A stretch of 64,000 bases of DNA. It comes from Magnolia sinica (lineage: Eukaryota > Streptophyta > Magnoliopsida > Magnoliales > Magnoliaceae). The stretch spans positions 44,437,001 to 44,501,000 of the forward strand of contig NC_080588.1 of the NCBI RefSeq assembly GCF_029962835.1, read 5' to 3'. The notes beneath the pieces were generated by a model, which saw nothing but the letters and a program-made list of their open reading frames with translations, was not told where the DNA came from and made no database searches. A program made the position numbers and the translations under genes. Below, piece by piece: positions 27,489 through 63,028 of this stretch. Numbering within the stretch: the stretch's first letter is position 1; each line of letters starts with the position of its first letter.

Positions 27489-28041
27489 CATTGAGGATCA
27501 AATTTTGCATATTATCCCCCATTTATTTCTTGGTTTTACAAACATAATATGGCTTAATGGTATATTTTACATGTGTTTGTGTTGCAAGGTTAATTTAAGA
27601 GCTTGGATTGAAAAGAATGCTAAAAGTATGGATTTAATGCTTAAGAATCATCAAGAAAAGAATGGATCTTTAGAGACCAAGATGGAAGATTTCAAGACCC
27701 CAAGATTCAAGAAAATCAAGTGGAAAAGGAAGGAAGTGCAGAAAGTAGTGCAGAAATTGGTGCAGAAAATTACAGGATTTGAGCTTAGATGTAATCGAAG
27801 GCAGTTTGATGACATCGAAGCTAGTCTGTCGATGACATCGAAGGTTGTTCGATGACATCGAAGAATTACAGGAAAAACAAGTTTAGTTGCTGGACAAATT
27901 GGATACATTATTTGCTTACATTGAAGTCTGTTCGATGACATCGAACCAGTTACGCAGAATGCGTAAATTTGATTCGGTTTTGAGATTTCAGGGAACTTTT
28001 CCTTTAAACAAAGGTTCCTAAGAACTTTTTGGGATATCTTA
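27489..28041 (+). repeat. 3' LTR of A1, left part
   Basis: Aligns to the first part of the 5' LTR; the first two bases are CA instead of TG. Palindromes near 27790-27944. The TATA box has decayed. Ends in the G2 target site TCTTA (28037-28041); the other half starts after TTTTA (47750-47754). Confidence 0.88.
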
Positions 28042-32200: not shown

Positions 32201-33547
32201 AACTCTACAACGACTCATCTGCCTACTGAGCCTCAATCACCCTTGTGATAAGAGATGGTTGAATCGACAGGCTTGATAATTGCACAATAGAAGACTGTAA
32301 GTCGATCTCAAAGTCGAATGCTAACATATCCTCAAGCATCTTCCACTCATGAATCATCATATATGCCACCAGGCCTCGTGGCTGACGGTTGAGAGCATCG
32401 ACCACCACATTCACCTTATTCGGGTGGTACTGAAGATCAAAATCAAAGTCCTTTAGGAGCTCCATGTAACGCCTCTGCTTCATGTTCAGCTTAGACTAAG
32501 AGAATAAATACTTTAAGCTCTTATGGTCGAAGAAGAGCTCGAACTTAACCCCATAGAGATAGTGCCTCCACACTTTCAATGCGAAGACAACTGCTGCCAG
32601 CTCCAAATCATGCGTGGGGTAGTTCAGCTCATGGACCATGAGCTGGTGGGATGCTAAGCCACCGGCTTCCAGTGCTGCATCAGGACAACACCCAAGCCAA
32701 CTCGCGAGGCATCGGTAAATAAAACAAATCCATCACTCCCAGAGGGAAGAGTGAGGACAGGAGTGGATGTGAGGCGATCTTTCTATTCCACAAATGCCTA
32801 CTCACATGCATCACTCCAAATGAACTCGGTGCCCTTTCGAGTCAACCTGGTCAACTAGGCTGCAATACAGGAGAATCCCTCAATAAAATGTCGGTAGTAT
32901 CCCACCAAACTAAGGAAACTGCGGATCTCAAACGTATTCGCGGGCTGGCCCCACTAGCACATGGCAGGGGTCCACTGCGATGCCCTCCTTCGTCACCACG
33001 AGAACGAAAAACTTTACCTCCTCTTGCCAGAATTCACACTTTTCCAGCTTCGCATAAAGACGGTGTGCACGGAGGATTTGCAAGGTAATCTCTAAGTGTT
33101 GCTCATGCTCCTCACGGGTCCTCGAATATATCAAGATGTTGTCGATGAACCCCACAATAAACTGATCAAGATATGAATTAAAGACCTCGTTCATCAACTA
33201 CATAAATACGATGGGTGCATTGGTTAGTTCAAAGGACATGACCTGGAACTCAAAATGACCGCAGCACATCCTAAATGTTGTCTTCGGGATATCCTCCTCA
33301 TGGACCCGAATCTAATGATAACTGAAACGCAGATCAATCTTTGAAAAGGACTGTGCACCATGCAGTTGATTAAATAAATCATCGATTCTCGGGAGTGGAT
33401 ACTTGTTCTTGATTGTGACCTTATTGAGCTCGTGGTAGTCCACGCAAAGCCTCAACGAGCCATCCTTCTTATTCACGAAGAGTACCGGCTCTCCCATGGC
33501 GAACTACTTGGACGGATAAAGCCTAACTCGCCCAACTCATCCAATAG
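32201..33547 (-). pseudogene. G2 reverse transcriptase-RNase H, 5' truncated
   Basis: Begins inside the RT fingers ([10 protein letters not shown] at about 33520) directly at the C1 border. A frameshift follows in P-W-G, then 33497-33312 ([31 protein letters not shown]). The catalytic motif reads F-I-D-N at 33138-33149 instead of F-I-D-D. The RNase H tail at 32483-32223 has the family-typical DFDLQYHPNKVNVVVDALNR. N-terminal RT, protease and the end of gag are missing. Non-functional. Confidence 0.9.
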
Positions 33548-34929
33548 CCACACAACTACTCCACTCCTAATATCTACTCCCTCGGGATATTAGCGTTCAC
33601 TAATCAAATAGGTTTTTCAAGCTTCACATAAAACCTTCACAATTGTGTTTTAAGTGGGCTACATAACCACAACCCCACACTCTAAGATTTTCTAGCTGAT
33701 CTCAGAAAAAAACAAATGAAATAAAATTACAGAAAAGGAAACACTTATCTATATAAAGATTTTGAAGTAGCCCAATAGAACCAACTTGATGATGACGTAT
33801 ATGTTCAACGTTCAGTCCCACAAGTGTATAGGGTTCTAGGTCTAGATGATTTTTAATTTAAATTAACTTAGGCTAGCTTGATTTGATTTCGATCTAAAGA
33901 AAGGGTAAATTAAATGTCCCTTTTCAATATTAGATTAGAATAGAGATCTAAAATCTAATAATAAGAGCTACTTATAAAGAATCTAAAATATGCACAAAAT
34001 AGCTTAGAATGAACACAAAATTATCTCAGAGTGATTGCTTAAAAATAATTAAAATTGAATAAAAAACTCTGAAATTCGAGTACTATTTCTAAGTGAAAAA
34101 TCTGTTCGCTTCGACTAGCCTTAAGTCCAATAGATTTTCAAAAATTCTGGCGCAATAAGATTTGACAAGTGCTTGACTAGCCTTGTGGGTCCCATGACTG
34201 GTCGAGTGGCCTGCTCGACTGGTCGTGGACTACACACGACTAGTCGAGTGGGGCCAGAATGCTTGCTTTAATTTGAGTCGAGCCCTGTACGATTGGTCAA
34301 GCATTGTTCACTCGACTAGTCGAGCAGTTTCTAGGACTGGTCGAGGACCAACAGAAAAAATTCTGAAAAATTGTAATAAATCCTTGACTGGTCGAGAAAA
34401 TTTTAGGACTGGTTGAGCCAGTGTTAGGGCGAGTCGAATAAACAACCTATTAACTTATAAAATGACCGATACCAATTACGAAATGAATGTAACATGCCCT
34501 AAGGTCAATCTAGGTCATTCATACCTTACTTGTGAGATAGACATTGGAACCATCAAACTATCGATCACATTGGCAACTTTAATTTTTGCGATATTTGAAG
34601 CTTCAACTCAACGTATCAAACTTAGTCTTCAATTAGGACTTGATTTCTTGGACGTTTTTTGTTACAGAGCTTGAACCGCAATATTGCGATTGGGTTCTTG
34701 AAAGTTGAGTCTTCAACCAACACTTGAAACTCATACACTTTCTTCAACTTGAAGATCTCGGCAAGTTCGACGTAGATTTCAGCAAGAATAATTCAACACT
34801 ATCATTGAAGGTTCAAAGAAAATCAAAGCACAAGCTTGATATATAAAATACATAAGCATGACACAAACTTGAATTAGTTTGGAACACCAAAATTTGACTA
34901 AACTTAGGATTTCCAACATAGCAATTTCA
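33548..34929 (-). repeat. C1 3' LTR, truncated
   Basis: Aligns with 42268-43672. The minus-strand start is TGAAATTGCTATGTTGGAAA. The TATA position (34084-34091) reads TATTTCTA on the plus strand, so the box is lost. Palindromes lie at about 34110-34440. Confidence 0.88.
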
Positions 34930-35400
34930 ATCTCTCCCTTTGTCAAATTTGTGATAAAAAAAATATGAGTCATGCAATAGATATTCAATAAGAACACATT
35001 CTCAATAAAGAATCATGCACCATTTAGTCAATAATTGATCAACAACATATGATCAATAAAGAATCATGCACCATCTGTGCACACCATGCAACTCTCCCCC
35101 TTAATCCATTACACCCTTTAAACCCGGAAAAGAAAATTCATATCAAATCAAGCTTATTCCCCACAATATTCTCCACCTTTTTGTCACAACATGACAAAGG
35201 AAAGAAATAGATGATAGATGATAAATGTAGATGATAAGAGAGTAAATAAGATAGAAAAGAACATGATAAAAAGATTAATATTAGATAACCATTAAGTATC
35301 ATGTCACAAGAGGTAAGTAGTTCAAGTAGTAATCATTCAAACTCACAGACGATAAAGAGATTTAAAAGATATTAATATAGAACCAATGCAAATGGAACAA
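34930..35400 (-). other. C1 polypurine tracts and 3' noncoding region
   Basis: The minus-strand tract ACAAAGGGAGAGAT abuts the LTR, and further CTCCCCC or TTCCCCAC tracts (plus strand) occur near 35091 and 35152. C2 has the same series at 51101, 51210 and 51340. Multiple tracts before the 3' LTR are a described Sirevirus habit. Confidence 0.7.
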
Positions 35401-36519
35401 CTAGTCAGATCCTGATGAAGGAGCAGGAATAGATGGATCAATCTTATGTAAACCCCTATTGATGCGCCTCATATATTTGCGCATATATTTGAAATGCAAT
35501 TGTTGGGTTACATGAATCTGAGCCACCTGTTTCTCAAGACAATGCAGTCTCTTATCAAAATCAGAAGGCTGACAATCAGAATCAGCCTCATAATCTGAAT
35601 CTAGCGCATTAAACAAATCATCCATGTTTATATCTTCTTATGGCAAAGCATCATCTTCTTCAACTTCTTCACCTCCTCCAGCATCCCCAACAACTTGACC
35701 AGGTTCCAGGCCCAGGTTCATCTTGTTGATATTTGAATTATTGAAGGGATGAAGATTAATGGAGCCTTCTCCAACAGGTATAGCTACCAAAGCATGGGTA
35801 GCTACGGCAGTCATAAGATAAGCAAAAGGAATATCACTTTGACCGGGATGGAAATGAAATTGAATGATAAGATGACAGATGAGAGAAGGAAGACATATAT
35901 GGATACCAGACACAACGGAATTCATAATATGGGACATGAAAGAAGTCAACTCAGTCATGTTACCTGAGCGAGGATACACATTTGAAATGATGAAGGACCC
36001 TGTATGTGGGTAACGTAAATTTGGAACTAAGCGCAATACTGTCATTCCACTCCGCATCCATGTTGTAAAGAACTCTTCTATTCAAACGTTTACATTCTCA
36101 GAAGGTCTAGAGGTCGAAGTAGATATGGGAACTCTGTCGTCAACAACAGGTATATACATGATAGAAGAAATCAAATGATGGTCTACTTCGATCAGACCTT
36201 CTCTAGTTGACACAATAAACGTCAAATTCTCTTAAGAAAAATCAGTAATATAAGTATACAAAGCCCGCGCAATGGACCGGTATGCCGAACCGCCCCAAGA
36301 TAATATGTTCTCCCATCCTACAGCTTGAAGAAGGTGGATGATGTTAAAGCGTTCAATATGATCAACATTAACAATACGCTCAACAATGACATTCCTACAT
36401 CGGATATCCCGCACATACTCGGGGTCCTCTTCAGGTGACCAAAGATGATGCACTGAAATAGGTGTGGAACGAGATGAAGAGGGACCACGAACGGTTCTCT
36501 TTCTATTTCGCCCTTCCAT
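35401..36519 (-). pseudogene. C1 accessory (env-position) ORF, about 372 codons
   Basis: One continuous minus-strand frame from ATG 36519 (MEGRNRKRTVRG) to TAG 35401, interrupted only by stops at 36234-36232, near 36080 and at 35640-35638. It has a basic start, a middle with NIIHLLQAVGWENI and a conserved core near 35950-35780 (GIHICLPSLICHLIIQF, IPFAYLMTAVATHAL), an acidic stretch (EEVEEDD) and a C-terminal part with a coiled-coil-like segment (CLEKQVAQIHVTQ). C2 encodes the same protein. The core resembles the plant 'putative plant transposon protein' families. No signal peptide or clear membrane span, so it is not an obvious envelope protein. Function unknown. Confidence 0.75.
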
Positions 36520-36782
36520 AGCAATAACAACTTAAGGAAAATAAGGATTGCAAAAAAGGAGAGAGAATTCAAAGGAATTCAGATTTTTAGGTAGAAACCC
36601 TTTCAAACCACCATAAAACTTGAAACAAAATGTAAAATCAAGTTATAGGAAAATAAATGAACTCAAATCTACAAGGAAATTGAAAATGAAGCACTAACCG
36701 AAGAGGAATCGAAGATGGGTTTGATCGGTCATGGTAGGGCTTGTTAGAGAAGAAAAACAAAGTGAAGAAAATGTGTTTTTCC

Positions 36783-36880
36783 CATATAAAAGGCAAAACC
36801 CGAGTTCTACGACTGGCCGTGTACATACTCGACAGGTCAAGCCACGACTGGTCAAGGGTGTACTCGACTAGTCATGTACC
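36783..36880 (-). promoter_or_regulatory. Candidate internal promoter of the C1 accessory ORF
   Basis: Four copies of the LTR palindrome (ACGACTGGCCGT, ACTCGACAGGTC, ACGACTGGTCAAG, CTCGACTAGTC) with centres at about 36814, 36834, 36849 and 36869 (spacing 20, 15, 20). They are followed on the minus strand by the TATA-like CCTTTTATATGGG (36782-36793). The ORF ATG is 260 bp further. C2 keeps the same geometry. Confidence 0.55.
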
Positions 36881-37004
36881 ACTGAAAATTTACAATTTTG
36901 CATCTATTTAAATTAAAAAAATTAAAATAAAAAATATATACATTATGATACAAATAGGCACAAATCATCCGTTCATATTGCACATATCAAGATCAAATTT
37001 TAAT

Positions 37005-37690
37005 TTTACAAACCTGTTTTTGTCAAGTGGTTTTGTGAATATGTCTGCAAGTTTATTCTCAGTCTGAATATATTCTAATGAAACTATCTTATCCTCCACC
37101 AATTCACGAATATAATGATATCTAATTTCAATATCCTTGGTTCATGAATGCTGAATTGGATTTTTAGAAATATTAATTGTGCTTGAATTGTCACAATATA
37201 AAACCATAGATTCTTGCGCAAATCCATAATCGCCTAGCATTCTCTTCATCCACAGAGGCTGAATGCATGCATTACTAGTAGCAATATGTTCAGTCTCAGT
37301 TGTGGAGAGTAATACGGAACTTTATTTCTTACTTAGCCAAGAAACCAAACAGTTCCTGATATAGAAACAACCACTGCTAGTCAATTTACGATCATCAATG
37401 TTACCAACCCAATCAGCATACTTGTAACCAGCTAATTGCACACTAGTATCATGTGGATACTAGAGATCAATATTAGTTGAACTAGCGACATATCAAAAAA
37501 TGTGCTTAACAGCAATCAGGTGGGACTCTTTAGGGTCTGATTGATATCTAGCACAAATTCCTACGTTAAAAGCAATATCAGGTCGGCTCATAGTTAAATA
37601 AAGTAAACTACCTATCATACTTCGATACAAATTTAGATCCACACTCTTGCCTGTTAAATCCTTAGAGAGTTTTAAAGTAGTACTCATTGG
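37005..37690 (-). pseudogene. C1 RNase H
   Basis: Copia-type RNase H: STTETEHIA near 37300, LYCDNSSTINISKNPIQH near 37195, YHYIRELVEDKIVSLEYI near 37110, and LADIFTKPLDKNRF near 37025. The upstream part 37687-37493 (SMIGSLLYLTMSRPDIAFNV) links RT to RNase H. Scattered stops, for example near 37324. Matches C2 at 63103-63800. Confidence 0.9.
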
Positions 37691-38480
37691 AGTATCAAAA
37701 TTTTTCCCACTCTCAAATCTGAACTTTTTAACTAAGTTTAAAGCATATTTGGTTTAAGAGATAAAGAATCCATCAGGGAGCTATTTGACTTGCAACCCTA
37801 GGAAATAGTTTAGTTCTCCAACCATGCTCATTTCAAATTTAGATTTCATAAGATTTGCAGACTCAATAGTCATGTTAGCACAGGTAGATCCATAGATAAT
37901 GTCATCAACATAGATTTGTACTATTAGTATATGATCATTATGTTTCTTAACAAATAATGTTTTATCTACACTCTCCATAACAAAGTAACGACTTAACAAG
38001 AATTTAGTCAATTTCTCGTACCATGCCCTGGGAGCCTATTTCAGACCATAGAGTGCCTTTTTCAGGCGATAGACATTATTAGCATGCTTAGGGTCTTCAA
38101 AACCCCTTGGTTGTTCAACGTACACTTCTTCATGAAAATCGCCGTTTAAGAACGCACTCTTTACATCCATTTGATATATTTTGAATTTTTTAAAGCACAC
38201 AATAGATATAAATAGTCTGATTGATTCAAGACAAGCTACTGGGGTAAAGGTCTCATCATAATCAATGCCTTCAATTTGAGTGTACCCTTGTACAACCAGC
38301 ATAGCCTTGTTTCTAATAATATTACCAAGTTCATCAGACTTATTTTTGAAAATCTATTTTGTTTTAATAATGTGTTTATGTTTTGGTCTTGGAACTAAGT
38401 ACCTAATATCATTTTTACAAACTGATTGAGCTCTTCTTAAATTGCTACAATCTAGTTTTCATCAGTAAGGGCTTCTTTTA
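37691..38480 (-). pseudogene. C1 reverse transcriptase
   Basis: RVT_2-type RT. 38302-38036 has [36 protein letters not shown] and LKKALYGLK. 38011-37781 has the catalytic Y-V-D-D (37901-37912) intact, then GELNYFLGLQVK. A TAG replaces the Gln or Trp between the two open parts near 38030. Best preserved enzyme of the window. Confidence 0.92.
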
Positions 38481-39540
38481 TATTAACCGATTCTATCTGA
38501 GATGTAAATCACACGTAGTTACACATATCTTCTAGTTGTTTACAAGTGCGCACACTAGTGAGAGGGTTTTCAAGGATTTAATCAGATGAATGGTCTTTAA
38601 CTGTCTGCAGTTTAGTGTTATTTTAACTTGATTAAAGTTTGGTTTATCAAACAAAAGGACATTATCTTCTGAACTTGAGACAGGTGTATTCAAGTGATCA
38701 TTATAACCACATTAATGGACTCTTGAATTACACTAGTCTTCTTGTTAAGAACTCGATATGCTCGACTATTCAGAGCATACCCTAAAAATATTCCTTCATC
38801 ACTTTTGGTGTCAAATTTACCCAGATTTTCTCAGTCATGCAAGATTTATCACTTGCTACTGAAAACTTGAAAGTATTTGGCAGTAGGCTTCTTATCAAAC
38901 CACATTTCATAAGTCATTTTACTATTTGATTTTCTAGTATAAACACGGTTAATTATATAACAAGCAATATTTATGGCTTCAGCCCAAAGATTTTTAGGAA
39001 GCTTCATATTATTTAGTATTACATGTGTCATTTCCTGAAGCACTCTATTTTTCCTTTCTACTACCCCATTTTGTTATGCTGTTTTGGGTGCAGAATATTC
39101 ATGCGATATTCCCTGGTCACTGTAAAATTTCTTAAAACTACTATTTTCAAACTCAGAACCATGATCACTACGGATCTTAATGACTTGTGATTCTTTTTCA
39201 GTTTGGATACGTTTAAGTACCTGTTTTACTTCGTCGAGAGTTTATGATTTCTCTCTTAAGAAGACTACCCAAGTATACCCAGTAAAGTCATCTACAATGA
39301 CCAGAATATACTTCTTACCACCTCAACTCTCCGTTCTAGTTGGTCTAATGAGATCCATGTGGAGAGGTTTGAGTGGTTTAGATGTGGCGTTGGAGTTCAC
39401 CTTTTTGTGAGCACTCCTAGTTTGTTTACTAATCTATCACTCGCCACATATTTTATCCACTTTCTTTATTTTGGGTAGATCTCTTACCAATTCACTTTTG
39501 CTCAATCTATACAAGTTGCAGTAGTGTACATGTCCAGGCA
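38481..39540 (-). pseudogene. C1 integrase
   Basis: Pre-integrase motif ELWHKCLD near 39555, then the core: ILVIVDDFTGYTW (first Asp, near 39285), IKIRSDHGSEFENSSF (second Asp, near 39170), NGVVERKNR (Glu, near 39055). C-terminal part at 39043-38849 (MLQEMTHVILNNMKLP, AINIACYIINRVY). All three catalytic residues are readable but in changing frames and with stops. Confidence 0.88.
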
Positions 39541-40101
39541 CTTATGCCATAATTCAGTCTCATCGATTTGGACCATGTAACACAATAGCTTAGATGAGCT
39601 TGAGTCATTGACTATGTAGCAGTTCTCAAAAGTTATGTGACCAGTTAATATTACAGAACCATTCTTATTTAAAATTTCACATCTTTGGTTGGTAAATTTT
39701 ACACTATGATTATTATCACATATTTGAGAGATGCTTAATAGATTATATTTTAAACCTTTTACATATAAAATATTCTCAAATAGAGGGAGGTTAAAGAGTT
39801 GAACCGTACCTTGGCCAACAATTCTGTAGTTGCGACCATCGTCAAATGTGATTGAACCATCAGTCATGTTTTTAAGACTGGTGAACAAACCATTGTCACC
39901 TGTCATATGTCTGGAGTAACCACTATCTAGGTACCACTTTGAATGGCTCGAATCCTTGAAAGCGGTGTGGGCAACTAAACAAGCAACCTTATGAACCCAT
40001 TTCATTATAGTTTTAGGTTTAGGAGCATAGTTGGTCTTCTTATGTTTACAGTTGTTATAAGTCCTACCCATTGAGTTAGATTTTAAGAGCTCCTTAAGCA
40101 A
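39541..40101 (-). pseudogene. C1 protease and pre-integrase region
   Basis: A 199-codon open frame (40101-39502). WYLDSGYSRHMTG carries the protease site D-S-G (39927-39919); the family usually has Cys where Tyr stands here. Then GQGTVQLFNLPLFENILYV and LLSISQICD, typical of Sirevirus polyproteins. Confidence 0.9.
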
Positions 40102-41743
40102 GTTTAAAATTTTCTCAACTAAAGGATAACGATTCTGATTCTTATATTTAATATGGTTGCTTTTATGTTTTAAAGTCTAAAAAGTTTTAGTATTTTTAGA
40201 ATTAACTTGATTCAGACTTTTCCCTTTTGAGTTAGAAGACTCCCCTTTAACAAATTTAGGTGGAGTATTCTTATAACGAGGAATACTTTTATCATGGCCT
40301 AATCCAGATCGATCGCCACATTTTCTAGATCTAGATAAAAAAATTTCTAATTTAGGATTACCTTGGGCATACCTCCATGTGTCCTTCAAACTCAAAAGCG
40401 AAGAGACTTCTAGTTTTAGCTTTTCATTTTCAAATTGTAAGTTTTTAACTTGGGACATTTTGAAATCTAAGTCGCACTTAGTTTTTTCAAAGCAGTCTAA
40501 AAAGTGTGATTTTTCTAAGACTAGATTATCAAAATTCTCTTTTAGTTTTGAAAACTATTCTTTCTGGAGTTTTAACTTTACAGCTATCTTACAACTTTTC
40601 CTATATAGGGCATTATAAGCATCTTGAAGGTCTTCTTCATTTTCATGATCACTACCCAGATTTTATTCACTAGTTGAATCATCATTATCTAAGAAAGTGA
40701 ACTTGGCTAGAGTCATTAGGGCTTTAACATCATTAGCCGACTCAATTTCAGAATCTTCTGACTTAAAAGATACTTCAAAGCAGGAAGATTCATCCCATGT
40801 AGCCAACATACCTTTCTTTTTAGACTTGTCCTTCTTAGGACATTTGTTTGCTAGATGCCCATATTCATGGCAGTTGTAGCATTGGCTGTCTTTTAGAGAT
40901 TTTTAATTTTTAGACCTAGATCTTTTCTTTTCAATAGGTTTTTGCAAATCAACTCTCTTTTTACTTTTGAAAATCTTGTAAAACTTTTTGGCTAAAAGGG
41001 CCATATCATCTTCAGAAGTTTCTAAATCAGAATTATTATTATTTTCATGAGAAATAATTTTAGAAGACTTGAGGGTGATTGACTTACCTTTGGGGGCCTT
41101 AAAATTTAAATCATAGGTGTGAAGAGACCCAACTAACTCTTCAACCCTCATATTATTTGTATCACGAAGTTCCTAGATCGCGATCACTTTTGAATTGAAC
41201 CGATCAGGCAACGAGCGTAGTATCTGTGCAAAGACTTTACTTTTTGGGATCCTATCACTAAGACCCCACATAGAGTTGACAATTTCATTCAATCTTATAT
41301 AGAAGTTCATGAAAGTTTCACTTTCTTCCAAACGTATTTCCTCAATTTTGGTTGTGAGGATTTGAACTTTAGATTTCTTGACAATTGTTATACCCTCGTG
41401 TGTCATTTTCAAAAATATCTTAGGCTTGCTTTGCAGTATCACAGGATATAATTCTTTTAAATTCTTTTAAATCACAACTAATAGTATTTAAAGCCTTTGC
41501 ATTGTCACTACTGTCACTTTTCTGAAGAGTTGTCCAAGAAAAATAAGGTGAAAGTTATACAATTATAGATCCATCAGTACTAGTCACTTAAGTGGTAGGA
41601 GGGGTCCAATTGGTCACTGTGGCTTGCCACATGCTCTCATCCATGGACTTTAAAACGATCCTTATTCTGGCTTTCCAATAGGCATAATTGGAGCCATCAA
41701 ATGGTGGAGGCCTAGTGATTGAGAAGCTATCAAAATTTGACAT
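40102..41743 (-). pseudogene. gag: C1 gag
   Basis: ATG at 41743 (MSNFDSFSITRPPPFDGSN, near-standard Sirevirus gag start). Then ORFs 41442-41173 (RLEESETFMNFYIRLNEIVN, a UBN2-type gag core) and 41151-40903. The zinc knuckle C-Y-N-C-H-E-Y-G-H-L-A-N-K-C at 40881-40840 is a complete CX2CX4HX4C. A Lys/Ser-rich coiled-coil-like tail follows (40458-40177). Stops near 41590, 41420 and 41160. Confidence 0.9.
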
Positions 41744-41810
41744 CTTAAAAAGCTCAGATCGATTAGCTCAAGAATTTAATCCAAATAACAAAAATAAAAC
41801 AAGCTATTAG

Positions 41811-41822
41811 GCTCTGATACCA
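41811..41822 (-). other. Primer binding site of C1 (initiator-Met tRNA)
   Basis: Minus strand TGGTATCAGAGC, perfect 12-base match, directly at the LTR end. Confidence 0.9.
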
Positions 41823-42803
41823 CTTAAAAAGGCTGATCTAAATGTCCTAAAGGTTGGGGGGTGAATAGGACAATACCAAATTTAAAAATAAAGTGCGAAA
41901 ATAAAGACTTAATAAGCAGTTAATAGCACAATAGAAAGCAACCTCTAAAATCAACTATTGAGAGGTTGATACAAACTTTGTTCTAAGGACAACCTGACAC
42001 CAAAAACCTACGGTTTATGGTAGGACAACCGTACTAGAATGTGGGTGAGTATCAAAAACTTAAATTCAAATGTAGGTGAAAGAAATAAGAACTAATCTAT
42101 TACAACATTCATTACACAATGCTTGAAAAATAAAGATTACAACATTCACATCCACAAATACATCCCACGATCTTAAACGACAAAATGATAAAGAAATAAA
42201 CCAAACACCCACCAAACACCAGAGAATTATAGTGGTTCGTGTGTGTACACCAACTGTCTGAAAATATCCACACAACTACTCCACTCCTAATATCCACTCC
42301 CTTGGGATATTAGCGTTCACTAATCAAATAGGTTTTTCAAGGTTCACCTAAGACCTTCACAATTGTGTTTTAAGTGGGCTCACATAACCACAATGCCACA
42401 CTCCGAGATTTTCTGGCTAATCTTAGAAAAAATAAATGAAATGAAATTACAAAAAAGGAAACACTTATCTGTATGAAGATTCTGAAGTAGCCTGCTAGAA
42501 CCAACTTGATAACGACGTAGATGTTCAACGTTCAATCCCACAAGTGTATAGGGTTCTAGGTCTAGATGATTTTTAATTTAAATCAACCTGGGCTAACATG
42601 ATTTGATTTCGATCTCAAGAAAGGGTAAATCAAATGTCCCTTTTCAAAATCAAATTGGAATAGAGATCTAAAATCAAATAATAAGAATTACTTATAAAGA
42701 ATCTAAAATATACACAAAATAGCTTAGAATGAACACAAAATTATCTCAGAGTGATTGCTTAAAAATAATTAGAATTGAATAGAAAACTCTAAAATTCAAG
42801 TGC

Positions 42804-42811
42804 TATTTATA
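42804..42811 (-). promoter_or_regulatory. TATA box of C1 5' LTR
   Basis: TATAAATA on the minus strand, followed by GCACTTGAATTT. Confidence 0.75.
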
Positions 42812-42824
42812 GGTGAAAAATTTG

Positions 42825-43185
42825 TTCACTCGACTGGCCTTAGGTTTGCTTCAACTGGCCTTAGGTCCAACAGATTTTCAAAAATTCTAGCACGATAAGA
42901 TTTGACAAGTGCTCGACTGGCCTTGTGGGTCCCATGATTGGTCGAGTGGCCTACTCGATTGGTCATGGACTACACACGACTGGTCGAGTGGGGCCAGAAT
43001 GCTTGCTGTAATTTGAGTCAAGCCCTGCATGACCAATCGAGTATTGTTCACTCGACTGGTCGAGTAATTTCCACGACTGGTCAAGGACCAATAGAAAAAA
43101 TTCTAAAAAATTGTAACAAATCCTGGACTGGTCAAGAAAATTCTAGGACTGGTCGAGCTAGTGCTAGGGCTAGTCGAAAAAAACA
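42825..43185 (-). promoter_or_regulatory. CTCGACTGGTCGAG palindrome array in C1 5' LTR
   Basis: About twelve copies; perfect at 43051-43064. Centres at 42918, 42939, 42960, 42981 (21-bp steps), 43034 (inverted), 43057, 43078, then 43129, 43150, 43171 (21-bp steps). The array begins 17 bp upstream of the TATA box on the minus strand. Confidence 0.85.
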
Positions 43186-43672
43186 ACCTATTAACCTATA
43201 AAATGACCGATACCAAGTACGAAATGAACGCAATATGCCCTAAGGTCAATCTAGGTCATTCATACCTTACTTGTGAGATAGAACGTGTGAACCATCAAAC
43301 TATCAATCATATCGACAACTTTAATCTTTGTGATATTCGAAGCTTCAACTCAACGTATCAAACTTAGTCTTCAATTAGGACTTGAGTTCTTGGACGTTTT
43401 CGGTTACAGAACTTGAACTGCAATATTGCAATTGGGTTCTTGAAAGTTGAGTCTTCAACCAACACTTGAAACTCATACACTTTCTTCAGCTTGAAGATCT
43501 CGGCAAGTTCGACGTAGATATCAGCAAGATTGATTCAGCACAATCGTTGAAGATTCAAAGCAAATCAAAAGCACAAGCTTCATACATAAAACACATAAGC
43601 ATGACACAAACTCGAATTGGTTTGGCACACCAAAATTTGACTAAACTTACGGTTTCCAACATAGCAATTTCA

Positions 43673-49365: not shown

Positions 49366-51100
49366 CTAAAAAGGGTGAGCTCTTAGTCCTAGGGGTTGAA
49401 TAAGACTCTGCCAAATAAAAAAAATGTAAAATATAAATGCAGATAGCTGAAACAAATAACAACCTCAATTGTAATAGTATTGAGAGGTTGATACTAACGT
49501 TATTCAAAGGACTACCTTAGACCGAAAACCAAAGTTTATGGTAGGACAACCTGATTTTTTGAATTCAGTAAGGATCAAAAACTTCAACTAAGACAAGAAG
49601 CAATTGAAACAAATCTAGCTATTACAACATTCACCACAAGTACATGAAATAAATATAAGCATTCACCACACATAAATCACATACATCATCACCCACCAAA
49701 CTCCAAGAATTATAATGGTTCGGTGTGTACACCAACTGTTCTAAAACAGCCACACCTACTACATTCTCAAGAAGCACAACCCACATGATATTGGCTTTCA
49801 CTATGAAAGAAGGTTTTCCAAGGTTCACCTTAAAACCTTTACAATTGCGTTTTCAAGGGGCTACCACAATTAAAAACCCCACGCTGAGATTTTCTGGCTA
49901 TCTCAATCAAAACCACAGTAGAGATTTTCTGGCAATCTCACAAACCAAAAGCTATAAATGAAATACTTATATGAAGATTCTCTTTTGATGTAGCCTAGTA
50001 GAACCTCTTCTTTGAAGATGAAGATGTTCAATGTTCAATCACACAAATGAAAGGGTTCTAAGTCTAAATGAATTTTAAATTAATCCAACCATGGGCTACT
50101 TTGATTCAATTTCTTGGATCTCAAAAGGGGTAGATCAGAATTCTGTTTTATCAAATCAGATTGAAATAGCAAGAGATCAAGAAATTAGAAATCAAAAGGC
50201 TATAGAAAGAATCTTAAATTACCGTACAATAGCTTGATGATCATAGGGACTTATCTCTCATAGTGGTGGCTTGAATTGGCTTGGAATGAATGAAAAAAGA
50301 TGAGAAAGGTTCTCTATTTATAGGCTGAAAAAAGGTTCCCTCGACTGGTCTAAGGTTAGCCTCGATTGGTCCTAGGAGCAATTAAATTTTAAAAATTCTG
50401 ATGCGATCGGATAAAACTAACCATTGACTGGTCAAGTGGGGGCTCAAAATGGTTGCTAAAGTTTGAGTTGAGCCTGGCTTGACTAATCGAGCCAGTCTCC
50501 ACGACTGGTCGATTAGGGTGCTTGACTGGTCGATTAGGGTGCTTGACTAGTCGAGGACCTACCAGAAAATTCTAAATTTTGAATTTAAATCTGAACTGGT
50601 CGAGAAAAATCCTAGACTGGTCGAGCTAGAGCCTAGACTAGTCGAACATTAACTTGGACTAGTCGAAGCAAAGCCTATAATAAGCAGAATGACCCAAATT
50701 AAATGTGCAATATGAATGACCTAAACCTAAGGTCTTTCTAGGGTGATTTATGCTTGAAATGTTGAACATTGAACTTGTAGCTTTGGTAGATCTTCTTCTT
50801 GAAGAATTTGAAGCTTGAACTTGTATACTTGAAACTTGATCTTTTTCTTGACTATGAAGTGTACTTGAACTTGATCTTGCATTTGAAGTAGCACTTGAAC
50901 TTGGTCTAGAACTTGAACATGTAATTGAACTTGGTCTTGAACTTGAAGTTAATGTTGGACATGAAGTTGATGTAGATAGAACGGTCTTCATGGCTTGTAA
51001 CACATCTTCGTATGAAGGTGAACTTTCCATCATTCTAAAGTGGTTTGTAACTACAAAATTTGACAATACAAGGTGCTTGATATACAACATAGCACTTACA
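49366..51100 (-). repeat. C2 3' LTR
   Basis: Minus-strand start TGTAAGTGCTATGTTG after the purine tract AAGGGGGAGAT. The other end is placed by alignment to C1 (CTAAAAAGGGTGAG). TATAAATA at 50322-50315; palindrome array at about 50336-50665. About 1.74 kb. Confidence 0.85.
50336..50665 (-). promoter_or_regulatory. Palindrome array in C2 LTR
   Basis: Copies of CTCGACTGGTCGAG with centres at 50346 and 50367 (21 bp), then 50484 (inverted), 50506, 50527 and 50548 (22, 21, 21 bp). Starts about 15 bp upstream of TATAAATA (50322-50315). Confidence 0.8.
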
Positions 51101-52532: not shown

Positions 52533-53329
52533 TAATGTGGTAATAATATCGGTAAGACTAAGGTCAAATGCACAAGGACTGAACCTTGTACGCAATCTGA
52601 AAGTAACTAGAACTAGAACTAGAAGAAGATGTAATTTAAAGCAGGAAAATTAAGAGAGTAATTGTGAATAGATTAATTAAAAACTAATAAATTTAAAGGT
52701 GGTAACTAGGGTGCCAAGGATCCACTTGTAGCAATTGGGAAGCTACCTTGCAGTGATTCAAGGACATAACTGGAATCAGAGTCCTAACCTATCCAATTGG
52801 TAAGAAGAGATTTGTCAAATCTCTGAACTTCTCATGGATCTAATCATCAATGGATGCGAATAGTGAAGATTTGGAAGTGATTCTGTCACCTAACCATGCC
52901 CAGGAGACAAGGTGAACAACAGCAATTTACCAATACTATAACCAATCATAGGAGAATTGTGAAAGTTAGGAAGGATTCTGTCACCCTACCATGCCCTAGG
53001 GATGATTGTGAACAACAAGATTTCCTAATTTCACAATTTCAATTCAATAAAAAGAAGATATTTCAAGCTATCACAGATCTATTGTAATTTAAGTCACAAC
53101 AAACCATTAAACACTAAAAATATTCCTTCATAATCAAACTAGAATCCAAGAGAGTTCAATAAAACATGAATCAAAACAAAGCAAACATCCCAATCACACT
53201 ACAAGCTTCACCTCTTAGCCCTAGCTAAGAGGTTTAGCCAAACGTGACTAAACTAAAATCTCAGGAAAACATAAAAGAAAAACTGAAGAAGAAAGAAGGA
53301 GGAGAAGCAAACTCATGGTTGCCATTCAC

Positions 53330-53373
<44 letters not shown>

Positions 53374-54649
53374 CTCTTCCACGTCCAAAGATGTGCCTCT
53401 CTACGTTCTCCCTCTCTCTCTCTCATAAGCCTACAAGGAGGTCGGTTGGAGAAGTTGGTAGTCGAGTTAGTGGAGAGGATTGCGTAAGAACTTACGCAGC
53501 AACATACTTGTGTGTGAAAGAAAAATGCAAACAGTTTGCGTTTGATGGAGATTTTGGGACAGTGGTCATCCCATCCTTTGTTTGGCCTTCATAGGGATGG
53601 TTGTGGCCCACTTGTGAATCTTCTGGATGGTCTAGATCGTCGAAATGATCGATGATCATGGCCCACAAGTTCCCAAAATTCTGAATTTTCATGTAAGCAG
53701 GCCATGCACACGAGAGTTGCGCTGAGCTCTTGGTGGGCCCCCACAATGGTGTTTTGGAGAAATCCTCCCTATCCATTAAATTCCTGGTGAGATTTTAGTC
53801 AGAAATGAGTGGTTTTGGTCAAGTTTTGCTACGGCCCACTGTATCAAATCATGTTACCATTCATCCTGCGTATGACGGTGATCTGCCTGTGTGTGCGTGC
53901 ATGGCAGCATATGTGTTCCATGGGAATGGTCGGCAACACCCCTAGAAATAATGAACGGTCCAGATCATCAATTGGATGATCATGGTGGGCCATCTCGACT
54001 CCCAGTGGACAGATGCCTGCATAAGAGGAAAAGCTTTCCTCTCCTACGCGGGAGAGCTTGGTTCAAACTGGTTTTGACCGATTTTGTGATCCAGTGCAAT
54101 TCTAGTATAGCCACTCAAGGTGGGGTCCATAATGATGTAGTGTGAGATATCTACACTGTCCATCTACTTTCTCATCTAATTTAAGGGGTTGAGACTAAAA
54201 TTGAAGCATATCCAGATATCAGGTGGGCCCCGAATCAGTGATTTAGTGGCTGATCTATCCATTGGGCCACTTCCACAAAGATCCAATGGCTGAAATTTTA
54301 CGTGTACAGTTACTTTACGATCCTCAGGGCAGATATAAAGTTTCAACCCAAACAGATTGAGGGAACCATGCGATCATGCATTCAGGATGATTTCAGGCCT
54401 CTTTATCTTCAATCACTTAATTTTCTCGAATCTTTGCCGTGTGAATTCTTCAATCTCGGCCCCCTAAGATCCATCTCTTGCTTTGGTGATTCTTGAGCGT
54501 TAAATCCATGCCTTTTGTACCCTTTTTCAATCCAAGCTCTTAGATTCACCTTGCAACAAAAACATGATTAAAATAGAACGTTGAGCATTATCATATTCAT
54601 AAAACTAAGCAATAACTGGGGTCTAATATGTAATATTTGACCCTCAACA
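52533..54649 (-). repeat. N1 3' LTR
   Basis: The minus-strand start TGTTGAGGGTCAAATATT at 54649 is shared with A1. (TC)n at about 53333-53371. The U3 part (53600-54300) holds MITE-like phrases (GATCATCAATTGGATGATCATGG, cut here to GATCATGGTGGGCC, and AAGGTGGGGTCCA) instead of the palindrome array. Confidence 0.85.
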
Positions 54650-56087
54650 AAATCTCCAACCAGCATTTTGCTAGTCCTGAGCAAAATATGCGAAAAGTAT
54701 TTTAAGAATTATAGGACAATCTCCATAAACTCAAGTGATTTTTGAAAAACAATCCAGATGCATTAATGTTGGGCATTATCTTCTCCTAAACTCAAGTGCA
54801 CGGTAAACTTCATGGCCAAGTTCAAAGTATTAATCCATCAATTAGAACAATTCTAAACATTGAGTTCCATGGGTGCATAGTGTAACTTCAACTTATCACA
54901 ACTAAAGGTCCGATCATCAATTTTCATGATAACATTGATAAAAACAAGCATTCCGAATAACCAAACCTAAAACGAAACTTGCGTTACAGTTTAGCCTTTT
55001 TATTCTTCCAGCTTTTGATTTTTCCATCGATGGCTTCACATTGTGTCAACCTTTTTAAATATCTTTAACAGGTAGTCGTTCTTTCAATGACAACTATTTT
55101 TTAACTGGGTATTCACCCTTTTTTATATTCATTGAACATGATGGACAAATTCCCCAGGTCGGTTCCTTCCATGCTTTGTGATTACTAAGATAATAATTCA
55201 ATATCAAACTGAAGCTTCAATGTGTAAGCTAGGTGTGACATGTGAAATCATGACTCAATAAATCTTTAAAATTTCTAATCACAGACTAATAATTCGAACT
55301 TAATTGTGAAATCCAATAGATAAATGAATCCAAGAGTCATAAATTACCAACATTACATATCTTATACTTCTATATCAAAGATGGCCTTTAAAATCACTTC
55401 GAATTCACAAGAATTTTCAAAAAAAATTTTATAAAAAATTCACAATTTTTACTCAAGACTAAGAAAATACTGATTAGGTAACCTAATCTCCCATCCCCAA
55501 CCTAAAATCTACATTGTCCTTAATGTAAAAGATATAAGCATACAATGCATGTGAGACAACGAAGTTGAAGGAGAATTGATGGAAAAATAGTACCTGAAGA
55601 AGGAATCAAGAGGCTTTTTCCAAAGAGATCTCAACGTGAAAGTGGGTCAGCACAAGAGTGAAACCAACAAAAAGCAAACTATCCTAGAGCAACTTGGAAA
55701 GCAAAGTATCCTAACAGCATAAAGCCGACTATCCTATAACGACATAAAGTAAACTACCCTAGTCCTATGAAAGCATGAAACTAATCCTAAACTAGGAAAG
55801 CAAGGCAAAAGCTACTCAGTCATGCCACAAGGTTCCTCTTCCGGCCAATGTCTTGATAAATTTCTCAGTAGGTTTCTTAACAAGATCATCTAAAAGCCCT
55901 TTTTGTAATAGGCTTGGATGCCCTGGAGCATGAATTTTTAGAGAAATTTATAAACCTCAGCATAAAATTGTCATTGAATCGCTTGAGTTATCCAAAGTAT
56001 ATATGACTCACCTATGATAGAGAAAGTTTCAGGGTTAGTACCCCATGGTGAATCGGAGATTACAAGTAGATAAAATTCAAGAAAATT
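54650..56087 (-). other. N1 3' internal region
   Basis: Noncoding. 55800-55960 retains text of the integrase end and the AGGATAGTTTGCTTT-like tail of A1 26270-26470. 55472-55488 is the conserved palindrome. 54650-55440 corresponds to A1 26700-27488. Confidence 0.7.
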
Positions 56088-57562: not shown

Positions 57563-59479
57563 TGAAATGGCCAAGCTAAATGTCCTAAAGGGGGGGGGGG
57601 GGGGTGAATAGGACAATGCCAAATTTAAATAATAACAACGGAATATAAATGAATAAAAGATATCACTATTAACAAATCACTATATTGGAATGTAAAGCAA
57701 CCTCAAAAAGAGAGATTGATATCAATGTTGTTCTAAGGACAACCTTACACCATAAAAACCAAAGGTTTATGGCAGGACAACCTTATTTCTAGAACAAATT
57801 GAATATCAAAAACTCAAAAAGAAAGGAAACAAATGAAATAGCAAGAAATAAATTCTAAACTATTACAACATTCCTCACAATGCTTAAAATATAAATCTTA
57901 CAATAATCACATTCACATATACGTCCCACAAATCTGAATGATCAAAGATAGAAAAAATAAATCACACATCCATAAAACACAAAGAGTTATAGTGGTTCGC
58001 CTGTGTGTACACCAACTATTAAAAAAATAGCCACACAGATTGCTACTCCACTCCTGATATCCTCACATAGGGGATATTAGTGTTCACTATCAAAATAGGT
58101 TTTCATAGGTTCACCCAAAACCTTCACAATTGTGTCTTTTTAGAAAAGGGCTTACACAATTCAAAAACCCTCACTTCTGAGTTTTCTGGCTCTCCTCAGA
58201 TAACCAACATAATGAGATTTTTCTGGCTTAATCTCAAATAAAACCAAAATGGAAATTTATATAAATGTAAAATACCTGGATTTCTCCTTTTGTTGCAGCC
58301 CGGAAGAACCAATCGAAGTAGAAGATCGAATGTACAAGTTTAAAGTCCAATACTCACTTTAAAATGGTTCTAGGTTCTAATTGATTTTAAATTAAACCAG
58401 TTGGGCTAACTATATTTGATTTTGATTCCAAGAAGAAGGAATATCACAATTCCTCTTTTCAATTAAGATTGGAATGTAAAAACAAAATCAAATTAATAAA
58501 GCTAACAAAAGAGAATATAAATTATGCACAGAGTAGCTTAAAATGAACACAAACTTATCTTAGAGTAATCCCTTGATTTTACTTAAATTGAGTTATCAAT
58601 CTCTGAAATTCGTGCTCTATTTATAATTGCAGAAACTCGGCTACGACTGGTCCAGAGGACACTACGACTGGTCGTAGGAGAGATGGATTTTTGAATTTTT
58701 TTAGTACAATCGAATAAAACCATTCTACGACTGGTCGTAGGGTGTCTACGACTGGTCGTAGGCCCTCTACGACTGGTCGTAGCATACCCACGATTGGTCG
58801 TAGGACTCAAAGATTGGTTGTTGTAGTTTGAGTCGTAGAACCAGGACTGGTTGTAGGACGAGTCAACACTGTTCACACGACCGGTTGAACAAAGTCCAGG
58901 GCTGGTCATGGACAAACAAAAAATTTTAAAAATTTGCAACCAACTTAGGACTGGTCTTGGAATTTCTTAGACTAATCGAGGCAGTGCTACGACTAGTCGA
59001 ACAAGGTTCAAGACTAGTCTTAGAACAGTCCAATTCCATGTAAAATGATTCAATTAAATTATGTATTCAAAATGACCTACCCTAATGACAATCTAAGGTC
59101 AATCATACATTGAAAGTGAGGTATGAACATCGAGACTTCATATCTTCAGATGATAGATGACCTTTGAAGATTGTGAAGCTTGAGATCTTTGAACTTGATG
59201 TAGCACTGAACAGGAGATCTTCTATAGCTTGAATAACAATTCATCTTGTGTTGTACACTGACTTGAATCTTGAACAAGATCACTTCTACTATTGTAGCTT
59301 GTACTTGCATTTCTTGAAGTAGTTTGAAGTAGTTCTTCTTTCTTGACTTGAAGTAAAATGCTTAGAGTGGTGATGCAATGTCTTGAACATTTATAATAAT
59401 GAACTATGCAAGACATAGATTGAGGTTTTGGCACCACAAAATTTGACAACCAAAGGAGCATAAAACCATAGCACTTACA
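57563..59479 (-). mobile_element. Solo LTR of a Sirevirus-like copia element in N1
   Basis: Perfect duplication AACTG (57558-57562 and 59480-59484). Minus-strand TGTAAGTGCTATGG...GGCCATTTCA. GGTTGTCAAATTTTGTGG is shared with the LTR at 10970. A run of 15 G at 57590-57604 marks the TTCACCCCC end block. TATAAATA at 58625-58618. 1917 bp. Confidence 0.92.
58634..59035 (-). promoter_or_regulatory. CTACGACTGGTCGTAG palindrome array
   Basis: About fourteen copies, four perfect 16-mers at 58662, 58725, 58746 and 58767; the last three are exactly 21 bp apart. Copies decay toward 59035. The array starts about 9 bp upstream of the minus-strand TATAAATA. Confidence 0.88.
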
Positions 59480-59484
59480 AACTG

Positions 59485-60345
59485 TCACTATGATGTATTG
59501 CTGGTTCATCTTTCCAATATTGATGTCTCCATTGATTATAGTCATACGGGTCATAGGTGGGAGAATCTTGTGGTTGTTAATACATATTATCACCCATAAT
59601 ATAATTACGCATTATTTTCTTCTTGTCGATGGGTGATAATAATTCTCACTCCCATAATTCAGACAACCCCAACATTCACATACTGCTTCCATAATCCGTG
59701 GAGGGTAATTATTCTCCTGCATATGATCACATAAGGACTTATTAACCAGTGGAGCATTATATTCTGATCAGTTCTTAATGATGGTTTTAGAAAAAATTTG
59801 AGACACAAGTTGATTTCTATCATAATCATCATACTTTCCTCCCCAATATCTATTATCCATCTTAACATACTGATGTACCCACTCTTACATGGTAAAACCC
59901 TAACTTTGAATCTAATCCTAAAAATAAAAGAGAAATCCTATAGCAATATGGAAGTATGTAAAGGAGAAGTTAGAAGGAAGTTAACATATTAGAGGAGATC
60001 AATGTTAGGATCTTGCAAAAGAAAACAAAACAAGTTAGTTTCTAAAATTAGAAAGTTTTTAAAAACAAAAATAGAAAGAGGAGTTAGTTTCTAAAACGAA
60101 CAGTTTCTAAAAAAAAAAATAGAAAATAGAAAGTTTCTAAAAAGATAAAAAGGAAGTTTCTAAAATTAAATTAGGAAAGTTTCTAAACCTAGAATTAGAA
60201 AGTCAGTTAGTTTCTTTTTAAAAAAAAAATCTTAAAATTAGAAAGTTTCTAAAAATAGAAAACAAAACCTAATCCTAGAAGTAGAAAAACACTAATCTTA
60301 AACTAATTTCAAAACTAACTAATCTCAGAAAAATGCAACCGTCAA
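59485..60345 (-). pseudogene. N1 leader and gag-like start
   Basis: 60000-60340 is a leader of repeated GAAAGTTTCTAAAAA-like phrases, as in A1 20690-20880. 59596-59485 reads MGDNMY, a stop, then QPQDSPTYDPYDYNQW. I do not recognise the product with certainty; it lies where gag would be. Confidence 0.5.
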
Positions 60346-60363: not shown

Positions 60364-60369
60364 AAAACT

Positions 60370-62920: not shown

Positions 62921-63028
62921 CACTCATAAAGGGGTCCCAACCGTGCAACTCGATCGGTTGAGTACATACTCGACCCATCGAGCCACAACTAGTCAAGTAT
63001 GTGCTCGACTAGTCGTGCAACCTCTAAA
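62921..63028 (-). promoter_or_regulatory. Candidate internal promoter of the C2 accessory ORF
   Basis: Four decayed palindromes (CTCGATCGGTTGAG, CTCGACCCATCGAG, AACTAGTCAAG, CTCGACTAGTCG) with centres at about 62955, 62975, 62990 and 63010: spacing 20, 15, 20 as in C1. A degenerate TATA-like site (CCTTTATGAG) sits at the C1 TATA position. Confidence 0.5.

Follow-up and report, generated by a model that had tools for sequence, protein, structure and literature searches.

Palindrome array A and its long terminal repeat

The window analyzed here, a stretch of 64,000 nucleotides of the Magnolia sinica genome (contig NC_080588.1), is a nest of long terminal repeat (LTR) retrotransposons. Rows of short palindromes stand upstream of a TATA-type promoter box in LTRs of this nest, and the spacing of these palindromes relative to the pitch of the DNA helix is the subject of this report. 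The palindrome-array promoter design is real and widespread in the genome. The array followed up, array A, comprises the following features (positions are those of the window unless a locus or contig is named):

58641..59022, minus strand: palindrome array A, CTACGACTGGTCGTAG type, with 4 exact and several degenerate copies
58618..58625, minus strand: TATA-type promoter box TATAAATA of the array A LTR, its first T 23.5 bp from the nearest palindrome center
57563..59674 (approximate ends), minus strand: LTR with array A, carrying a C-rich integrase signal at 57598-57609

Exact copies of CTACGACTGGTCGTAG start at 58662, 58725, 58746 and 58767. An earlier note on this DNA had described three perfect copies exactly 21 bp apart, which are those beginning at 58725, 58746 and 58767; the fourth exact copy lies 63 bp (3 x 21) away. 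The word "perfect" is right for the 7-bp arms, but not for the TG between them, which is asymmetric. Similarly, the perfect copies do lie on the upstream side of TATAAATA (58625-58618), as the note had it, but the immediate neighbor of the box is a degenerate copy and the perfect ones stand farther upstream. Degenerate copies begin at 58641, 58788, 58841, 58945 and 58987. No primer-binding site with up to two mismatches was found next to this LTR, which is therefore probably solo, and a repeat search around array A returned no inverted pairs at the settings used.

The exact 16-mer CTACGACTGGTCGTAG occurs 6461 times (3318 + 3143) in the 1.84 Gb of the genome, and its backwards control not once. 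When palindromes were detected without a given motif, positions 58630-59040 yielded 10 (two of them shadows between neighboring copies) against a mean of 1.9 and a maximum of 5 in 40 dinucleotide shuffles. A chance origin of array A is ruled out by these two results. The palindrome count exceeded the shuffle maximum in eight of the twelve stretches tested in this way; the four stretches without such an excess were the arrays B3 and B2 and two envelope-side arrays.

Palindrome classes and their distribution

Three classes of palindrome could be distinguished, namely AB (TCGACNNGTCGA with variable outer arms), C (TTCGATGNCATCGAA) and D (TTCGGCNAGCCGAA). They look like variants of one TTCG...CGAA frame, and all three retain two CGs per palindrome, which are 8-9 bp apart when read off the motifs. 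The cores of AB and C are CGA-TCG and only D (TTCGGCCAGCCGAA) has CGG-CCG. The statement that other LTRs of the window share the design with other palindromes was borne out by arrays of the CTCGACTGGTCGAG type (34193-34396, 42912-43157 and 50340-50646), the TTCGATGACATCGAA type (919-1272, 4961-5550, 7398-7681, 19490-19673 and 27785-27945) and the GGCTAGCC type (11254-11593), the labels C1, C2 and A1 of the earlier note being matched by motif only.

Twenty stretches of 10 kb were taken at hand-picked round coordinates on 18 contigs, their content not being known beforehand. Arrays of at least four AB or C copies were present in seven of them (L029, L031, L033, L036, L040, L041 and L042), and shuffled versions of ten of the 20 stretches contained no palindrome row. 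The same filter also lists CACTA-like rows of irregular spacing (L031 near 6096, L036 near 7926) and the rows of L034 and L043 described below. Among 20 LTR pieces located at exact integrase signals on contig C1, the best motif was of class AB in 13, C in L062 and D in L053; L055 had a C-like motif and L065 an unclear one. The automatic search found no array in L056, L067 and L068, and arrays may be missed in such pieces because the cut was always made equally far from the signal.

Spacing of the palindromes

Adjacent gaps were collected from the window and 67 loci, of which 27 had been picked for carrying CTACGACTGGTCGTAG, so that the sample is not random; class D gaps were left out of this locus-wide scan, since its limit of four mismatches admits AB sites. 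Class AB contributed 54 arrays with three or more copies and 377 adjacent gaps, of which 185 measure exactly 21 bp. Gaps of up to 23 bp (n=217) fall at 20-23 bp in 201 cases and at 14-19 bp in 16, and none were seen at 24-27 bp. The 12 class C arrays have 64 of their 65 short gaps at 20-23 bp and the remaining one at 19 bp. Genome-wide, 942 pairs of exact TTCGATGNCATCGAA lie 15-45 bp apart (backwards control 0); 42 of the 50 listed are at 20-24 bp, eight at 40-44 bp and none at 25-39 bp. The earlier note had named as its refutation a spacing that is random or due to slippage alone and lacks a 20-23 bp peak, and this outcome did not occur. The proposed center spacing of 20-23 bp recurs as an adjacent spacing common to classes AB, C and, as also observed, D, and the listed class C pairs 46-107 bp apart follow a 10.4-bp comb.

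A peak at two helical turns would also arise if a 21-bp unit had been duplicated repeatedly by slippage or unequal exchange, its spacing simply inherited and its helical phase not selected. The dominance of exactly 21 bp among AB gaps agrees with this explanation, as do the gap ladders common to copies by descent and the spacers of 60-70 bp that recur as higher-order units. It is the longer spacings that separate the helix from slippage, since a 21-bp unit would give no pairs at 5, 7 or 9 turns. Exact TTCGATGNCATCGAA pairs number 120 at 46-76 bp and 1018 at 77-107 bp genome-wide, with a backwards control of 0 in each case. The pairs listed for closer study came from contig C1 only (class C at 15-45 and 77-107 bp, class AB at 46-76 bp) or from contigs C1-C7 (class C at 46-76 bp), and a spacing was taken to fit if it deviated from an integral number of turns by no more than a quarter turn, for which half of the pairs (75 of 150) are expected by chance.

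The 50 listed class C pairs at 46-76 bp gather at 51-55 (7), 61-67 (24) and 69-76 bp (16), with three at 46 bp, and those at 77-107 bp at 80-85 (20), 93-99 (9) and 102-107 bp (21). Over all 150 listed class C pairs (15-107 bp), the best period within a range of 8-30 bp is 10.40 bp (V 0.62), and 134 fit. An odd number of turns (5, 7 or 9) is nearest for 30 of the 150, where a 21-bp unit predicts 0, and these spacings gather at 51-55, 69-76 and 93-99 bp. At 46-76 bp the listed pairs are without a 21-bp comb (V(21) 0.07), as against V 0.52 at 10.5 bp, and the class C unit itself varies in length over 20-24 bp. When only distinct spacing values were counted, by which much of the weight of shared descent is removed, class C at 15-107 bp retained a period of 10.48 bp with V 0.42 (p<=0.0002 when compared to uniform values). 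The corresponding p-values are 0.0009 for class C at 46-76 bp, 0.04 for class C at 77-107 bp and 0.01 for class AB at 46-76 bp. Of 34 long class C gaps from the fetched loci, 28 fit at 10.4 bp and 25 at 10.5 bp. Class C spacing tracks the helical pitch better than it does a fixed repeat unit, and the comb is strongest in this class.

For class AB, 4041 exact pairs were counted at 46-76 bp genome-wide (backwards control 0). Those listed (n=50) fall at 52-54 (5), 58 (2), 62-66 (38) and 72-76 bp (5), with a best period of 10.64 bp, and fit in 47 cases at 10.5 bp and in 46 at 10.4 bp. A jitter test, in which only the long gaps were jittered, was applied to 15 representatives from 25 arrays that had five palindromes or more (a four-palindrome array was left out) and gave a combined p of 5e-4 for the band of 10.0-10.8 bp (0.002 in a shorter rerun).

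Several observations weigh against helical phasing. Class C pairs at 77-107 bp, taken alone, have their best period at 20.70 bp (V 0.62, compared to 0.59 at 10.4 bp). Even turns are nearest for 70 of the 100 listed class C pairs at 46-107 bp, and inheritance of a two-turn (21-bp) unit therefore contributes. Three of the 50 class C pairs listed at 46-76 bp have a spacing of 46 bp, and the envelope-side arrays hold an off-phase 15-bp gap in both elements that carry them. The listed pairs are kin by descent, so that the p-values overstate their independence. Long AB gaps in the fetched loci fit weakly, in 108 of 160 cases at 10.5 bp and 93 of 160 at 10.4 bp with 80 expected, because off-phase gaps of 49, 70 and 33/34 bp recur by descent. 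In the jitter test only three of the 15 arrays, all of class C, reached p<0.05 alone, and one of nine control bands (11.8-12.7 bp) also had a p of 0.02. Support from class AB is mixed. Helical phasing of every array is ruled out by the off-phase gaps and the 20-15-20 spacing of the envelope-side arrays. With the odd-turn clusters and the missing 21-bp comb at 46-76 bp on the other side of the scale, we hold slippage or unequal exchange alone to be an unlikely explanation of the arrays, though one to be taken seriously.

Turnover and symmetry within the arrays

Two further comparisons bear on the duplication of a 21-bp unit. The linkers of neighboring equal AB units are 0.39 identical, compared to 0.30+-0.03 in random pairing (44 distinct pairs), and are thus near random in sequence with their length kept, which speaks against slippage; the palindromes of the same neighbors are 0.83 identical, a figure inflated by the selection of good matches. 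The palindrome arrays of CACTA-like elements in the same genome, which have irregular gaps, point in the same direction. In favor of slippage, arrays of one AB subfamily (11 LTRs) gain and lose blocks of 15-24 bp.

The same 11 LTRs provide further points against selection for the comb. Mutation is 2.4-3.4 times faster in the array than in the LTR past the TATA box (0.11-0.16 versus 0.047 substitutions per site), and the array has 1.7-1.8 indels per 100 bp per sequence, compared to 0.72. Palindromes (0.111) are kept only slightly better than linkers (0.134). Purifying selection on spacing was not seen among these recent copies, whose linkers contain indels at least as often as their long gaps do. 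The comb looks to be maintained over the long run and not in individual fossil copies.

The two halves of the palindromes change together to some extent. In 263 distinct array sites, the bases at +-3 are complementary in 0.67 of cases versus 0.56+-0.03 after shuffling; covariation at +-2 is weak (0.56 versus 0.50+-0.03) and beyond +-3 there is none. Isolated sites (n=27) reach 0.48 versus 0.28+-0.08 at +-3. Against a symmetric protein site, 132 sites that had lost the CG at +-1 display no excess at +-3 (0.57 versus 0.54). This loss would be in line with selection on a CG pair in each palindrome, about one turn apart on average, that serves methylation readers or escape from methylation. Such a CpG comb would also account for the two CGs kept in all three classes, and the repeated-motif (RM) clusters of Sireviruses form CpG islands, according to the part of the published description available (PMC2829016). 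On the other hand, symmetric changes occur at the non-CG flank +-3 when all distinct array sites are taken, and the central bases differ by class with symmetry kept. Selection for CpG spacing is accordingly regarded as quite improbable as the origin of the arrays.

Promoter geometry and a candidate function

The position of the arrays relative to TATA boxes was compared in the following elements of the window (ORF, open reading frame):

42849..43165, minus strand: array B (CTCGACTGGTCGAG type), located in the 5' LTR of the Ty1/copia element 33543-43672; its TATAAATA box (42804-42811) is 24.5 bp away from the last palindrome
34193..34397, minus strand: array B (CTCGACTGGTCGAG type) in the 3' LTR of the same 33543-43672 element
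33543..43672, minus strand: Sirevirus-type Ty1/copia element with its LTRs (Retrotran_gag_2, Pol_BBD, RVT_2)
50340..50670, minus strand: array B2 (CTCGACTGGTCGAG type) in the 3' LTR of a relative of 33543-43672; its TATAAATA box (50315-50322) is 24.5 bp away from the last palindrome
36807..36876, minus strand: row of four palindromes ahead of the envelope-position ORF (spacing 20-15-20), TTTATATG 24.5 bp past the last
62949..63017, minus strand: four matching palindromes in a second element, spacing 20-15-20, TTTATG 25.5 bp past the last

Among the 51 AB array ends (on either strand) with a TATA box within 130 bp, 30 have the first T of the box at 24.5 bp from the center of the last palindrome. 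Three window LTRs that are 67-70% alike have it at 23.5, 24.5 and 24.5 bp. Beside the array at 34193..34397, no match to TATAAATA was found within the stretch scanned. On the envelope side of two elements, a TTTAT box begins 24.5 or 25.5 bp past the last of four palindromes, so that the LTR promoter geometry repeats before the envelope-position ORF, though with the 15-bp gap off-phase. In class C the TATA distances are 51, 52, 64, 65, 104 and 105 bp. A phase between array and TATA common to all classes was looked for and not found (24.5 bp in AB versus 51-105 bp in class C), which is a further point against the explanation favored below.

We favor, at slightly better than even confidence, the explanation that the arrays are promoter-proximal LTR sites for a dimeric DNA-binding protein that occupies one face of the DNA. 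Each palindrome would be a two-fold symmetric predicted site of 13-16 bp for one protein dimer, and neighboring sites, mostly whole helical turns apart (chiefly two, also 4 to 10), would place the dimers on the same face. It is symmetry and phase that point to the dimeric proteins suggested in the earlier note. Dimers aligned in this way might bind cooperatively and act as activators. They could touch one another, or else the transcription machinery assembled at the TATA box, which lies 24.5 bp (AB) or 51-105 bp (C) downstream. The module before the envelope-position ORF would act as a second promoter for that gene.

A role of the transcript instead of the DNA was also weighed. As RNA, array A (58634-59035, minus strand) folds with a z of -7.8, and none of 100 shuffles folded as well, so that a 3' LTR array near the RNA end could form long stems that function in packaging or dimerization or give rise to small RNAs for silencing. 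An excess of small RNAs on maize Sirevirus palindrome regions, as related in the available parts of two papers (PMC5311732, PMC10760457), is in agreement with this idea. Identical palindromes in any array fold well, however, and a comb at the pitch of DNA is not expected of RNA. The arrays stand directly upstream of TATA boxes, with the same TATA-like distance before the envelope-position ORF, and the spacer of Gypsy arrays is mostly inverted relative to transcription. An RNA structure is thus an improbable explanation of the design.

Class C arrays in Gypsy LTRs

Class C arrays were found in Gypsy-type LTRs and in an integrase-signal LTR of the window, listed here with related parts:

919..1272, plus strand: array C in a Gypsy-type LTR (~615-2164)
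4961..5550, plus strand: 17-copy array C (TTCGATGACATCGAA) within an inserted LTR (~4674-6640), integrase signal 6598, TATATAAA at 5594-5601
7398..7681, minus strand: array C in a Gypsy-type LTR (~7980 down to 4450), broken by the 4674-6640 insert
19490..19673, plus strand: array C in a Gypsy element's 5' LTR (~19190-20693); TATAAATA follows 65 bp past the last center
20700..27400, plus strand: Gypsy internal domain with Retrotrans_gag, RVT_1, RT_RNaseH, Integrase_H2C2 and rve in this order (the gag, H2C2 and rve matches fall under the Pfam cut-off)
27785..27945, plus strand: array C in this Gypsy element's 3' LTR (27491-28041, resumed at 47751-48598 past a nested insertion)
52535..54693, minus strand: another LTR from this Gypsy clade, lacking a class C site (pair at 60283-62520)

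The Gypsy LTRs at 19190-20693 and 27491-28041/47751-48598 and the related LTRs 615-2164, 7980-6640 and L042 all contain class C arrays, and the element at 19190-48600 has the order of reverse transcriptase (RT), RNase H and integrase that is characteristic of Ty3/Gypsy. The LTR pair 52535-54693/60283-62520 aligns to this clade at both ends and fails to do so in the middle, where the array would be expected; no class C site was found there with up to four mismatches. The inserted LTR 4674-6640 combines a class C array with an exact Sirevirus integrase signal. It is probably solo, and its assignment to the Sireviruses is suggested by this signal together with its similarity to other integrase-signal LTRs. 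Since no copia pol was seen beside this type of LTR, the cross-superfamily reading rests on the integrase signal.

The spacers, with palindromes removed, of two integrase-signal LTRs were each compared with four Gypsy spacers, using 200 shuffles. Inverted spacers of 4674-6640 matched in three of four comparisons, with scores of 40 versus 24.4+-3.4 and 32 versus 19.6+-2.8 (0 of 200 shuffles in each case) and 34 versus 23.1+-2.7 (p 0.005); in the third of these the same orientation scored equally well (32, p 0.005), and with the L042 spacer the inverted comparison gave no significant match (p 0.11). For the second LTR, L062, two inverted comparisons gave a match (0 of 200 shuffles; p 0.01) and the other two failed. 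In sum, a p of 0.01 was reached by five of the eight inverted comparisons and by one of the eight in the same orientation.

These similarities are compatible with the idea, put forward tentatively and with the balance somewhat against it, that the palindromes and the spacer site AGTTTGGTTGCTRGACA form an operator-like phased module that may have passed between Ty1/copia Sireviruses and Ty3/Gypsy elements within one genome and could work in either orientation. Unrelated retrotransposons would plug into one DNA-binding factor via a transferable U3 cassette. If Copia and Gypsy elements truly have the module in common, the promoters of LTRs evolve through the exchange of cassettes between superfamilies, and the common control of unrelated retrotransposons would be explained. 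The interpretation given in the earlier note is supported in part. Its claim that each element family has its own site oversimplifies, since class C is present in both Gypsy and integrase-signal LTRs and the classes resemble variants of one frame.

The sharing of class C also bears on the origin of the presumed protein, which is likelier to be a host protein than the element's own because one site serves both a Gypsy family and integrase-signal LTRs. A sequence-specific protein encoded by the element, either a VANC-like anti-silencing factor or an auto-activator, might nevertheless bind the arrays and coevolve with them; the module does precede the element's own envelope-position ORF, and co-turnover of non-coding motif arrays is known, from what is available of the literature, for the VANDAL/VANC targets (PMC5735166, PMC10398659). 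In this case the protein of one element must serve the other, and no transcription-factor-type domain was recognized in the ORF pieces scanned. The string "palindrom" is absent from both of the VANDAL papers. A protein of this kind is very improbable, and the least probable of the explanations considered.

Other elements and observations

One further array of the window belongs to class D:

11254..11593, plus strand: array D (TTCGGCYAGCCGAA type; GGCTAGCC) in an LTR with an integrase signal at 12450

A 50-bp unit is repeated four times in tandem at 12604-12855, directly past this LTR. The assignment of 33543-43672 to the Sireviruses is based on several features. The Ty1/copia gag-pol order is present in pieces (Retrotran_gag_2, Pol_BBD, RVT_2), and a palindromic RM cluster lies upstream of a conserved TATA box both in this element and in its relative at 50-52 kb / 63 kb. 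An exact primer-binding site TGGTATCAGAGC was located at 41811-41822, and one exact polypurine tract (PPT) AGGGGGAG at 35094 is accompanied by two one-mismatch variants (34932, 35171); the relative has three exact PPTs near its 3' LTR (51103, 51212 and 51342). No poly-C integrase signal with up to one mismatch was found in the LTRs of 33543-43672, and other LTRs of the window have it (6598, 12450 and 57598). The envelope-position ORFs of 33543-43672 gave a weak Transposase_32 match below the cut-off. Comparison of the RT pieces of the Gypsy and copia elements with viral contigs revealed no relatives.

Direct repeats of ~3.1 kb (28038-31124 and 44352-47483), which are 85% identical and 16.3 kb apart, flank the copia element within the Gypsy LTR, and an RVT_1 fragment is present at 32928-33197. 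Elsewhere in the genome, a further palindrome variant, TTCGATTAATCGAA/TTCGATATATCGAA, occurs with 19-bp spacing on contig C1 (4012292-4012324 and 10833431-10833463). Other repeated palindromes have irregular gaps, namely CTCGAGCTCGAG in L034 near 3200-3510 (12/12/51/251/66) and TGCGCGGCTCGCGCA in L043 near 404 (239/30/358). AB arrays on contig C1 also occur in pairs 3-5 kb apart, for example 13650114 + 13653238 and 7253110 + 7257592, which suggests that short elements, perhaps non-autonomous, carry this promoter array as well.

Comparison with known systems

Multicopy palindromic repeats near transposon ends are found in the same genome in CACTA-like elements, a label that reflects our reading of their terminal sequence. 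Dense repeats of this kind lie at ~7740-8130 in L036 and ~6050-6340 in L031 (ACGGTCATGGACCGT; ACGGATAAAATCCGT), and they differ from the LTR arrays in their irregular gaps (37/27/38/27/61 and 33/77/84/75/34). Another set of comparable arrays belongs to the VANDALs, which are DNA transposons. As far as the accessible text goes, the VANDAL/VANC targets resemble the LTR arrays in being non-coding motif arrays that turn over together; they differ in that their motifs have a single orientation, with no description of palindromes or helical phase, and in that their binding protein is known (PMC5735166, PMC10398659).

The maize Sireviruses offer a further comparison. Their palindrome region is reported to be variable and fast-evolving (PMC5311732), and small RNAs map to it in excess (Bousios 2016, as described in PMC5311732 and PMC10760457). 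Like the arrays of the window, it is a palindrome-rich, fast-evolving cis region of the LTR with strong predicted folding; the maize work stresses silencing, and helical-turn spacing does not appear in the descriptions available (PMC5311732, PMC10760457). At the level of titles and abstracts, the literature searched contained no report of helical phasing of LTR palindromes, and an earlier publication is possible.

Palindrome repeats in Sirevirus LTRs were already known, as the earlier note had stated. Palindromic repeated motifs (RM boxes) upstream of the TATA box were described in detail (Bousios 2010, PMC2829016), and the following comparison refers to the accessible part of that paper. RM boxes have a CGG-CCG core, with Tnd-1 as the exception, and a common binding site for a single factor could not be identified. 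Like the arrays analyzed here, they are family-specific multicopy palindromes that stand upstream of TATA within the LTR's upper half and recur in front of the envelope gene. The PPT AGGGGGAG is likewise common to the elements, and the poly-C integrase signal of Sireviruses occurs in the window in the LTRs with the signals at 6598, 12450 and 57598. In Magnolia, the core is CGA-TCG in classes AB and C and CGG-CCG in D only. Helical spacing was observed here and is not described there: the words "periodic" and "spaced" are absent from PMC2829016, "helical" appears once in the title of a reference, and 21 bp is given only as the distance between the integrase signal and the LTR end. The RMs were called Sirevirus-specific on the basis of a comparison among Ty1/copia elements, whereas class C is also present in LTRs of an element with Gypsy order. 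Whole-turn spacing provides a fingerprint for the binding factor, and for the unnamed factor of PMC2829016 the whole-turn rule predicts a dimer on one DNA face that would be disturbed by a half-turn insertion. Palindrome arrays in Sireviruses are thus known, and their helical spacing and their presence in Gypsy elements look new.

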